Of a stretch of DNA of 64,000 nt, positions 47,312-51,792 are shown in pieces. This stretch comes from Synechococcus sp. M16CYN (GTDB lineage: Bacteria > Cyanobacteriota > Cyanobacteriia > PCC-6307 > Cyanobiaceae): assembly GCF_040371545.1 (NCBI RefSeq), contig NZ_AP029048.1, positions 1,364,001 through 1,428,000 on the forward strand, read 5' to 3'. How positions within the stretch are numbered: the first letter of the stretch is position 1; every line of letters begins with the position of its first letter. Made by a program: the position numbers and the translations under genes. The notes below the pieces were generated by a model. That model searched no databases. It was not told the origin of the DNA and saw only the letters and a list, made by a program, of their open reading frames with translations.

Positions 47312-47409
47312 ATGATAAAGGGTAAAGTAAGAGCAATCTACGTTATACCCTACCTTTGTAACTTTAAAACAAAGAATAGAAGCTTCGCTCTGCTGTCTAA
47401 AAGCATCTT

Positions 47410-47529
47410 TTACGAAAGCCGGTGGATCACTGCTATTGGCTTACTGGGTTGGCCTTGGGCACAGCGGAATGCCACCAAAGGGATTTCTCGGTCAATCTGA
47501 ACACCTGGCTTGACTAAGAGAAATTGGAA
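47410..47529 (-). pseudogene. Remnant of a gene's C-terminus
   Basis: On the minus strand a frame of 39 codons without a start codon reads FQFLLVKPGVQIDREIPLVA, then FRCAQGQPSKPIAVIHRLS, and ends at a TAA at 47410. The content looks like conserved protein rather than noise, but an in-frame TGA closes it at the left and nothing recognisable lies upstream. It may be the last part of a gene that formerly lay between aroA and glmU. The plus-strand frame over the same bases (47312-47500) looks like its shadow. Confidence 0.35.
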
Positions 47530-48676
47530 TCAGTACAGTTATTCTCTGGTAATTGCTTCTCGACAATTCGACTTTAAAAAAATCATCTGATTTCGCACTT
47601 ATGATGCAAACTAATATAATCCAAAGACCATGAAGGCTATAGCTAGCACCAAGGAGTCAAAGCTTTCGAATTTGAAGCAAGGTCCGCTAAAGCCAAAGAA
47701 TAATCCTTAGTGTTATGTGGTTTATATGTATGAAATTTTTCTTCCCATACGGTCTCTTCAAATTCTGGCTTGAAGAATTTTAGCCACCTTAGCTCAACCG
47801 ATGATAGAGGATTGACTATTTACAGTTTATCTAGACGCAGTGCAAGGTAATTTAAATGAAGTAAGGGCCATGCCAAACGCCATTACTCTATAGGATGGAG
47901 AGATCTAAACGGCGATAACTACCGACAATCAAGCAAAGGATTTGCTTGCCCTAGAAATAACTTCATTTATGCATAACAGTGAAATCACGATATCATAAGA
48001 GACATCAATCAAGAATAAATATTTAAAGTATGCGTTATAAAAGTAAATTAGCTATGATCAGTGAGTGAATTTTATAAATAATTTACCATTAAAAAGTTAG
48101 AGGTTTACAATTAATGGATCTGAATATAAAAATTTTTTAGAGTTATTTAAAATCGTCACAAAACAACTTATGCTTTATAATGTTAAAGTAAAAACAAATT
48201 TTACGTAAATTTGAATAAGCTATTAAAAATTAAGACAGATTAATAGCTAAATAACTCTAAAAAATTTTTAGCCAAAAATAAAAAATAGTAGTTAATACTT
48301 AGAATAACTAATATCACAAAAATCTCAGATATCTTAAAGATAAGATGAAAATAACCAATAATTCCTATCAAATAAAAATTAGAAGATATATGTATAATAG
48401 AAATATAGAGTTGATTTCAACGGTAAGTAAGTAACTAAAAAAGAATAAAGTCAACAAATAATCCAAGTAAAATATGTACTACTTAGTTGTAACTAAAGCT
48501 GCAAATAAGTAAATGGATAAACGTTAATCAGGAGATTAGTACAACGAGACACCAGAAAATGTATCAATTGAGATGAAATGTAGAACTGATGATTCATGTA
48601 GGAAAAGTAGTGTTAACAGCTTTGATGCGATTGACCAACTAATTCGTAGCCTCAGTAGGCACAACAATTTGTTTGT
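47530..48676. other. AT-rich region upstream of the antenna gene
   Basis: About 1.15 kb, strongly AT-rich, without a convincing gene. A 26-residue basic frame at 47630-47710 (MKAIASTKESKLSNLKQGPL) is the only hint of coding. It holds the 23-bp inverted repeat at 48127-48270 and must contain the antenna promoter, which I could not fix. Confidence 0.5.
48127..48270. repeat. 23-bp perfect inverted repeat, 98-bp spacer
   Basis: The arm at 48127-48149 (core TTTTTTAGAGTTATTTA) is an exact reverse complement of 48248-48270. The 144-bp unit has the look of a miniature inverted-repeat element or a large hairpin. I see no obvious target duplication beside it. Confidence 0.75.
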
Positions 48677-49711
48677 ATGCAATCTTACGGAAACCCATCA
48701 GTCAGCTATGACTGGTGGGCAGGAAATTCAGGAGTTGCTAAACGGTCTGGGTTATTTATTGCTGCCCATACAGCTCACGCAGGTCTCATAATGTTTTGGG
48801 CCGGTGCATTTACCTTATTTGAGTTAGCTCGCTACGATAGTGTTCTGCCAATGGGTGAACAAGGATTAATTCTTCTACCTCACTTGGCTTCACTAGGTTT
48901 AGGTCTAGATTCGAATGCAACAATTGTAAATACAGAACCATACATTGCTATTGCAGCATTTCATTTAGTCTCTTCAGCTGTTTTAGGAGCTGCTGGAATT
49001 TGGCATACATTAAGAGCACCCAAAGATTTGTCTAAAGCCGAAGGTCGAGCAGTAAAATTTCATTTTGAGTGGGATGATCCTAAAAAACTCACATTCATCC
49101 TTGGTCATCATCTTATCTTCCTTGGGTTAGGCGTTATTGCGTTTGTTGAATGGGCACTTCATCATGGAATCTATGATACTGCAATTGGAGCCGTTCGCAT
49201 AGTTGAACCCAATATTAATTTAGGAATGGTTTGGAGCTACCAAACTAATTTTCTTTCAATTAATAGCCTAGAAGATATAATGGGAGGACATGCGGTACTA
49301 GCATTCATTCTCACCATTGGAGGTGTTTGGCATATTATCTCAAGTCCATTTGGAGTATTCAAGAAAATCTTGATTTATTCCGGCGAAGCTATTCTTTCGT
49401 ATTCATTGGCAGGGATTGCTTTAATGGGGTTTGTTACAAGTATTTGGTGTGCACAAAATACTACAATTTATCCTGTAGAATTTTACGGTGAAGTTCTAAA
49501 ACTGAATTTTGCATTTTCTCCCTATTTTAGTGATACTGTCTCTGTTCTAAATAGTAATTACACAGCTAGAGCCTGGCTAGCTAATACACATTTTTATCTA
49601 GCATTTTTCTTTTTACAGGGTCATTTTTGGCATGCATTACGTAGCATGGGATTTAATTTCAACACTGTTTCACAAGCTTTTGAGTCAATGGATAGTACTA
49701 AGGTAACTTAA
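48677..49711 (+). CDS. Pcb/IsiA-type chlorophyll-binding antenna protein
   Basis: 344 residues with six predicted membrane helices of the CP43 family but without CP43's large lumenal loop. The start MQSYGNPSVSYDWWAGNSGV is the Pcb/IsiA N-terminus. Chlorophyll-ligand histidines lie in SGLFIAAHTAHAGL, TFILGHHLIFLGLG, GGHAVLAFILTIGGVWHI and the C-terminal FFLQGHFWHALRSMGF. It mixes Pcb-like (FWAGAFTLFELARYD) and IsiA-like (MGEQGLILLPHLASLG) wording. It should bind chlorophyll around photosystem I or II, IsiA-like under iron stress or Pcb as main antenna. Codon use is far more AT-rich than in neighbouring genes. Confidence 0.93.
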   Translation: MQSYGNPSVSYDWWAGNSGVAKRSGLFIAAHTAHAGLIMFWAGAFTLFELARYDSVLPMGEQGLILLPHLASLGLGLDSNATIVNTEPYIAIAAFHLVSSAVLGAAGIWHTLRAPKDLSKAEGRAVKFHFEWDDPKKLTFILGHHLIFLGLGVIAFVEWALHHGIYDTAIGAVRIVEPNINLGMVWSYQTNFLSINSLEDIMGGHAVLAFILTIGGVWHIISSPFGVFKKILIYSGEAILSYSLAGIALMGFVTSIWCAQNTTIYPVEFYGEVLKLNFAFSPYFSDTVSVLNSNYTARAWLANTHFYLAFFFLQGHFWHALRSMGFNFNTVSQAFESMDSTKVT

Positions 49712-49816
49712 AAGATTTATTAAAGCATTTAAGTTTTACTATAATGTAAACTATTAAGAATGCTAAGCACTTATTGCTAAAGATTTAAATTTTCATTACA
49801 GTTAAACGATTTCGTA

Positions 49817-49896
49817 CATACTAATTCTCTAATAGTAAGAACTGTAACACAAGATTATTCCTGTGTTACAGTTCTTACTATTAGAGAATTAGTATG
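49817..49896. repeat. 35-bp perfect inverted repeat with 10-bp loop
   Basis: Bases 49817-49851 (beginning CATACTAATTCTC, ending AACACA) are exactly reverse-complementary to 49862-49896, around a 10-base loop. A stem this long and flawless, about 105 bp after the antenna stop, is exceptional. No T-run follows, so it is not a classical terminator, though it could still end or protect the antenna mRNA. Confidence 0.95.
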
Positions 49897-50045
49897 GATA
49901 CAAGAATTTTAAAGTTTTTAGATAAGTAATACATTTGCTCTCGATTATTTGTTAAAAACAATAATTGTAGTTAAATATTTTATATCTATTTTTATTTACA
50001 GTCAAAAGTTGATAATCATATCCCTTGTATTACTTAAGAATAATT

Positions 50046-50144
50046 ATGAAATCTGAATTTACAGCAATAAATTTTGTACTCTGTTTTGCAGTAGCTTCAA
50101 TCTTTATACAAGAATTTTCAATTAACTTGTTTTTCTTTAATTAA
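50046..50144 (+). CDS. Tiny hydrophobic ORF
   Basis: 32 residues starting MKSEFTAINFVLCFAVASIF, one predicted helix then aromatic tail. It lies between the 35-bp hairpin and the next small gene. AT-rich DNA makes such frames easily, so evidence is weak; its place beside another small membrane gene is the only support. Confidence 0.25.
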   Translation: MKSEFTAINFVLCFAVASIFIQEFSINLFFFN

Positions 50145-50239
50145 GATTAATGCATTTTAATAAATACAGTGTTTATCTTATACATAAAAATATACATAGA
50201 GTTTTCTATGTTAGATTCTAATATCTTGCACCAGATACT

Positions 50240-50398
50240 ATGGCTCTGACTAGCTTCGAAATTGCAGTAGGTGGTGTCACGGCAATACCTGTGATTAGTG
50301 GTCTCGTTTTTTTGACTTATAAGGGTTTTTTAGAGAAAAACCTAGATATATCTAGACCAGAAACTAGAGAACCTATAGTCAATAAAAAGAAACAATAA
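50240..50398 (+). CDS. 52-residue membrane protein in the antenna island
   Basis: Begins MALTSFEIAVGGVTAIPVIS, one membrane helix at about 8-28 (VISGLVFLTYKG), then a charged tail (EKNLDISRPETREPI, NKKKQ). The composition is richer in G and C than the surrounding DNA and the helix-plus-charged-tail layout matches low-molecular-weight photosystem or NDH proteins, though I cannot assign it to any of them. It is probably real. Confidence 0.55.
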   Translation: MALTSFEIAVGGVTAIPVISGLVFLTYKGFLEKNLDISRPETREPIVNKKKQ

Positions 50399-51792
50399 AA
50401 TTATCTATGTAAAAAAATAAACAATATTAAACAAAGATAATCAAGAATTTTATTAAAAATTTTTATAATAAAAAATCTTCAAAATTCTAAAGCTTTTTCT
50501 AACGATAAAGATAGAAAAGTAAATTTAAAATGTAAAGGTGATGAATAATTAAATAAAAGTTATAAAATAAATGACAATAATATGCATTTCTTTTAGGCAT
50601 AGATAATAAATTAACAGAAACTTTAAATGATTAGTACTTTTGCAACATTTTTGTCAACTTAAGCATAATTAGTATCTATAATAATAAAAATATTTAATTT
50701 AATGAATCTTTTAAATACTGGTCTTGGATTTTTCCCATCGCTATTTGGATTTTAATCGGCATTAAAACTTATTTAAGTTGGTTAATAAATATTTTTGTCA
50801 AGAATTAAACAAAATTAATCTCCAATAAAAAATGATTGAAAAATGTGGATATGATATAGTTCCTTACTTAAAACTTGAGACCTCAAAAAGTATTTGTTTA
50901 TGGATACTACAAAATACTAATAACGATGTTATGATACTACAAGTAATAATAAAGATTTTAATTATTTTTTAATCTTATTAGTGCAAGTCTTGTTTTTTAC
51001 ATCTGTCGCTATTTTAACTACTATAAGTAGAGCGTTATTTAGTTGTATTAGTACACTCTGAGTAATGATTTTTAACCCTTTAATATATTTTATGCAAAAA
51101 TAATACACAAAATACATTACTCAAACTTTCTTTGAACAAAATGATGTATAAAATATTCTATAAAATTTTTAAATTGGTCTGCATTATAGACAACAATTAT
51201 CAAGAAATTTACAGGCCCATCCACCCCTGTATTCACTAGTAGGGGTGGATGTATATGACCTGTCGATCCCATCCCAGGATGACCTTTTAATTATGCATGC
51301 AAGTTGATTCATTGAGAGTGATAAACGTTTTTAATAGAAGTAATATATGTGACAAATATTAGAATAATCTGTTTCTTGAATCTTAGTAAATAATATTGAG
51401 ATAACTAGTTAAAAATATAAGAGGCTAATATCTTATTAAGACTCTATTAATAATCATATTAGAAGATTAAAATAAATGGTTTAAAACTAAAAAATATATC
51501 TCTAAAAGTAATTTATTTAACTTTTGAAATGATACGCTAGTCACTTTTTAGTTAAAAATAAGTTATCAAAGTATAAACTATACCACAATGTTAATGTGTT
51601 AACAATTGATTATCGCTTATCAAGATAGTTAACCGTTCGCTTTTAATTTAACGAGTTAACCTAATATTTAAAAGATAAATTGAAGCAAATCTAATTGAGT
51701 CTTTTGTTTAACTTTCAGCTGTTACGATGTGAAGTTAATGTCCAATACAAAGACCAAGCCCAGTAGATTCTACCCGTCACGCTGTTGTCTGT
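50399..51792. other. AT-rich region between antenna island and glmU
   Basis: About 1.4 kb without a convincing gene. It contains a GC-rich hairpin at 51218-51251 and otherwise only short random-looking frames. The glmU promoter should lie at its right end. Confidence 0.5.
51218..51251. repeat. GC-rich hairpin in AT-rich DNA
   Basis: CATCCACCCCT (51218-51228) and AGGGGTGGATG (51241-51251) form a perfect 11-bp stem with a 12-base loop; outer CAGG and CCTG can extend it with a gap. It stands out from the AT-rich flanks. No T-run follows on either strand close by. Confidence 0.7.

Follow-up and report, generated by a model that had tools for sequence, protein, structure and literature searches.

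A perfect 35-bp hairpin behind isiA in a reduced cyanobacterial symbiont is probably a product of replication template switching

Introduction

How does a long, perfect hairpin come to lie just behind a photosynthetic antenna gene, and does it have a role there? The window, meaning the whole 64-kb stretch of DNA that was analysed, carries a perfect inverted repeat with 35-bp arms and a 10-nt loop at 49817-49896. The genome consists of contigs of 1,940,073 and 17,326 bp and matches, in size and phylogenetic setting, CregCyn, the reduced symbiont of the dinoflagellate Citharistes regius, whose reported genome comprises 1.94 Mbp of chromosome and a ~17-kbp plasmid and was sequenced from phi29-amplified single host cells (PMC11150560). 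The features of the locus are as follows.

47312-51740, no strand assigned: AT-rich (about 21-45% GC), mostly non-coding stretch from aroA to glmU, holding isiA and the hairpin
48677-49711, + strand: antenna gene of 344 aa, isiA/pcb type, ahead of the hairpin (TIGR03041, 505 bits)
49712-49816, + strand: spacer of 105 nt, without the T-tailed terminator that free-living sisters have here (terminator scans)
49817-49851, no strand assigned: left 35-base arm of the perfect inverted repeat (repeat search and exact hairpin scan)
49852-49861, no strand assigned: loop of 10 nt, AGATTATTCC (exact hairpin scan)
49862-49896, no strand assigned: right 35-base arm of the perfect inverted repeat (repeat search and exact hairpin scan)

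The names aroA and glmU were taken from the ORF sequences. The gene upstream of the hairpin was called isiA-type because of its TIGR03041 family membership, its identity (up to 91%) to proteins of marine Synechococcus genomes, and a match to an IsrR-like antisense RNA. The latter match, to the Rfam model of IsrR (the antisense regulator of isiA), lay at 49070-49241 on the - strand and scored 70.6 bits, above the cut-off, although this score could be inflated by overlap with the coding sequence.

Other elements were observed in the same stretch. Upstream of isiA, the decayed DNA also holds a perfect 23-bp inverted repeat at 48127-48270, with arms 98 nt apart. On the + strand at 50240-50398 is an ORF of 52 aa with one likely membrane segment and 53-56% identity to ORFs that sister genomes carry close to isiA; it had no Pfam or NCBIfam matches, and is likely a real small protein. 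Farther downstream, at 51213-51289, a structured element (TACAGGCCCATCCACCCC...GGGGTGGATG...GACCTGTCGATCCC) is conserved amid decayed DNA. Two copies of it were found in each of the sisters G014, G006, and G027, pairing was kept in 92% of cells, and two pairs were changed on both sides. This element had no credible Rfam match and is possibly an undescribed small RNA.

Results

The two arms were exact reverse complements at 35 of 35 bases, which confirmed the perfect stem and 10-base loop given in the preliminary description, and 105 nt separate the end of the antenna stop at 49711 from the hairpin, in agreement with the distance given there. The repeat search returned the same hairpin as 38 nt at 97% if two inner loop pairs were included. 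The GC content of the hairpin was 29%, and it was the only perfect hairpin in the window with a stem of at least 14 bp (loop up to 60). Its fold was -54.7 kcal/mol as RNA (z -15.9) and -35 kcal/mol as single-stranded DNA, and each value lay over 15 standard deviations outside the range of shuffled sequences. A third-order Markov model trained on the surrounding AT-rich 4.4 kb was used to generate 2 Mb of sequence, in which there were no perfect stems longer than 14 bp. The length of the 35-bp stem is far beyond chance. No T-run followed either arm, as had been described; the right flank is GATACAAGAA, with T at 1 of 10 bases, and the left flank is CGATTTCGTA.

A search for the arm in the genome and its relatives had been proposed as a check. 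When it was run, one copy was found in the genome itself and none in 98 relatives. Nor did the arm or the region have any match in the GTDB contig collection or in viral contigs; phages and plasmids yielded short chance matches only, and Rfam had no match at the hairpin. No duplication flanked the hairpin, and its ends were not common to other hairpins of the genome. None of the 98 relatives could be aligned across the site, and the spacer was likewise not alignable to the regions downstream of isiA in sisters. Because close relatives do not show the ancestral state, the origin of this hairpin was inferred from the class to which it belongs.

That class was defined in an 844-kb sample of CregCyn, the window included, with ORFs of at least 80 aa rather than annotation serving as the coding mask. 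The sample contained 15 perfect hairpins with stems of at least 17 bp; 10 had stems of at least 20 bp, with two of 35-36 bp. None of the 15 lay within ORFs of at least 80 aa, even though these cover 75% of the sample. The hairpins were mutually unrelated in sequence and ends, and direct repeats beside them were absent or were just 2-5 bases of simple sequence. Five of the 15 were no more than 125 nt past the 3' end of a gene, compared to 32.4% expected from non-coding bases; the class is thus no nearer to gene 3' ends than chance. Stems were perfect up to their edges and partly decayed stems were few, which fits recent birth or re-perfection. The second giant (L217:14254-14330) has a 36-bp stem, a 5-nt loop, and 17% GC, and there is no ORF of at least 100 aa within 1.5 kb on its left.

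Comparison genomes held fewer such structures. In 1.2 Mb of stretches from three free-living sisters there was one non-coding hairpin of at least 17 bp, so that the density per 100 kb of non-coding DNA was 7.1 for CregCyn compared to 1.2 for the free-living sisters (P=0.04). The AT-rich, Prochlorococcus-type genome G059 had 4.0 per 100 kb, from which CregCyn did not differ significantly (P=0.35). Much of the CregCyn excess is due to its far larger amount of non-coding DNA, and the rate per non-coding base is raised modestly at most. The longest CregCyn stems do stand out by their length. Long non-coding hairpins of the other genomes were few, and all lay just behind genes, where terminators are placed.

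Two CregCyn hairpins, L212:14633-14685 and L138:18258-18305, were alignable through the stem, at identities of about 70-78%, and at both sites the free-living sisters lack the hairpin. The L212 site carries an 18-nt insertion compared to G016, which aligns straight through. The first 11 nt of the insertion, when reverse-complemented, are identical to the 11 nt beside them, which themselves match G016 at 8 of 11 positions, and the outer right arm has been altered such that it now pairs with the outer left arm. At the L138 site, those sisters that can be aligned through it share the outer left arm CGCCTGC but not the right arm that pairs with it. For three more hairpins examined in this way, no relative could be aligned over the stem. 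These footprints appear as template switching would leave them; since the identities are only about 70-78%, they are supporting but not conclusive.

At sister isiA loci, a GC-rich stem with a T-run follows about 30-60 nt after the stop. The terminator scan found no T-tailed terminator in CregCyn after isiA or further downstream in the stretch; CregCyn has lost the one that sisters carry, and any RNA running past isiA would therefore include the 35-bp stem. The sister terminators resemble the CregCyn hairpin in lying just downstream of the same gene, but they are GC-rich, about 10-14 bp long, and end in a T-run, whereas the CregCyn hairpin is 35 bp long, AT-rich, without a T-run, and 105 nt from the stop. 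RNase III is encoded in the genome.

Discussion

Taken together, these data suggest that the hairpin is probably a young, lineage-specific product of replication template switching in weakly constrained DNA. During replication, a polymerase strand would switch template over a short distance, synthesise one arm by copying the other in reverse complement, and then switch back. The outcome would be a perfect stem in a single step or, alternatively, the perfection of a shorter quasi-palindrome. Such a stem could persist because selection would be weak on DNA that is non-coding and decaying, in a symbiont with a reduced genome. If transcribed, the stem of -55 kcal/mol is predicted to be cuttable by RNase III, and any effect on the 3' end of isiA mRNA would be a by-product. 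We favour this origin because the hairpins of the class are unrelated to each other, non-coding, not tied to gene 3' ends, and absent in the sisters that can be aligned. The focal hairpin itself has both a stem far beyond chance and no repeat family, as a template-switch product should; we infer that it arose in this manner and serves no essential function. Recent origin, one of the options raised in the preliminary description, is accordingly the best supported of them, in that the stem has no mismatch, none of the relatives searched carries it, and it belongs to a lineage-specific class. Against template switching, the excess of hairpins per non-coding base is modest, and footprints were alignable at two sites only. 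SbcD was not found in this genome. Loss of SbcCD was considered as a cause of hairpin survival and rejected as not specific, as most sampled members of the genus were also below the cut-off or undetected.

There is precedent for both routes. Template switching makes perfect stems in one event, as Monttinen and Loytynoja described for RNA hairpins (PMC8794818). Those hairpins share with ours a single event of origin, a long perfect stem, a short loop, and the lack of a repeat family; they differ in being mainly from eukaryotic microRNA loci and rRNA, and the focal CregCyn site has no readable ancestral state. In Escherichia coli, template switching perfects quasi-palindromes (PMC7202029), which is similar in that imperfect inverted repeats are made perfect at stalled forks. 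However, the E. coli reporters registered correction of a 4-bp frameshift within a short palindrome, compared to the 35-bp stem of CregCyn.

The manner in which the genome was sequenced offers another explanation. The amplicons were obtained by REPLI-g amplification (PMC11150560), and phi29 amplification yields inverted chimeras, with inversions making up more than 85% of the chimeras formed (PMC1855051). An amplification or assembly artefact is nevertheless unlikely, and we give it little weight. Chimeras of this kind have a single junction that joins segments with the intervening sequence deleted (PMC1855051), whereas here both flanks run on as unique sequence, and the amplicons had been treated with S1 (PMC11150560). 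Chimeras should also strike coding DNA at random, yet placement was not random with respect to genes, with 0 of 15 hairpins of at least 17 bp in ORFs (0.25^15, or ~1e-9). Furthermore, two additional cells were reported to contain the cyanobacterial sequences (PMC11150560), a finding that does not concern this site specifically. A mobile element had also been proposed, and a palindromic one of the MITE or REP type, present as a copy or a remnant, would account for a long, perfect, intergenic inverted repeat. Elements of these types would be expected in several copies or with a target-site duplication, and the hairpin showed neither. It is single-copy, it has no relatives in the genome collection or viral contigs and no meaningful match in phages or plasmids, and the other hairpins have different ends; therefore, it is not a mobile repeat as far as these searches extend, and this explanation is highly improbable.

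Function at the 3' end of isiA could take either of two forms. One is a factor-independent terminator lacking a T-run, perhaps acting in both directions as the preliminary description had suggested. Its position behind a gene and the lack of any other terminator nearby are compatible with this, but the GC-rich stem and T-run of an intrinsic terminator are missing on either strand, the terminator scan did not report the hairpin, and hairpins of the class do not cluster at the 3' ends of genes. The next ORF (50240) and gene (51793) downstream are both codirectional with isiA, so no convergent gene calls for a bidirectional terminator. We regard this form as very improbable. The main rival to a template-switch product is the other form, a selected 3' element: read-through isiA RNA would end in the stem, which would either keep out 3' exonucleases or undergo trimming by RNase III and so set the 3' end of the mRNA. 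Evidence in its favour is the location on the sense side 105 nt past isiA, the very stable stem, the presence of RNase III, and the lack in CregCyn of the canonical stem and T-run that sisters have after the stop. Inverted repeats at the 3' ends of chloroplast mRNAs are also known to stabilise the mRNA (PMC5897788); as in CregCyn, these stems follow photosynthesis genes and can protect mRNA ends, a role that is putative for the CregCyn hairpin. By analogy with chloroplasts, setting or protecting the 3' end is plausible. In contrast, the other hairpins of the class are not tied to gene 3' ends, relatives give no evidence of constraint, and protection needs less than 35 bp. Selection for such a role is unlikely on balance, though with a better chance than the other alternatives. 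A product of template switching may still incidentally protect or define the 3' end of isiA mRNA.

If the hairpin did arise by template switching, the stem would record an error of replication and should not be annotated as a regulatory element, and genomes such as that of CregCyn would be well suited to counting the long hairpins that template switching makes in bacteria. Long perfect stems near genes should also not be read as terminators or mobile elements without comparison to relatives. If the hairpin instead acts at the 3' end, a chance hairpin would have replaced a lost terminator. A broader possibility, which we consider improbable, is that the symbiont gathers unrelated, perfect, newborn hairpins in its decaying DNA, some of which, like that at 49817-49896, take over 3'-end formation for genes that have lost their usual terminators; if true, CregCyn would show RNA elements at an observable stage of being born by mutation alone.
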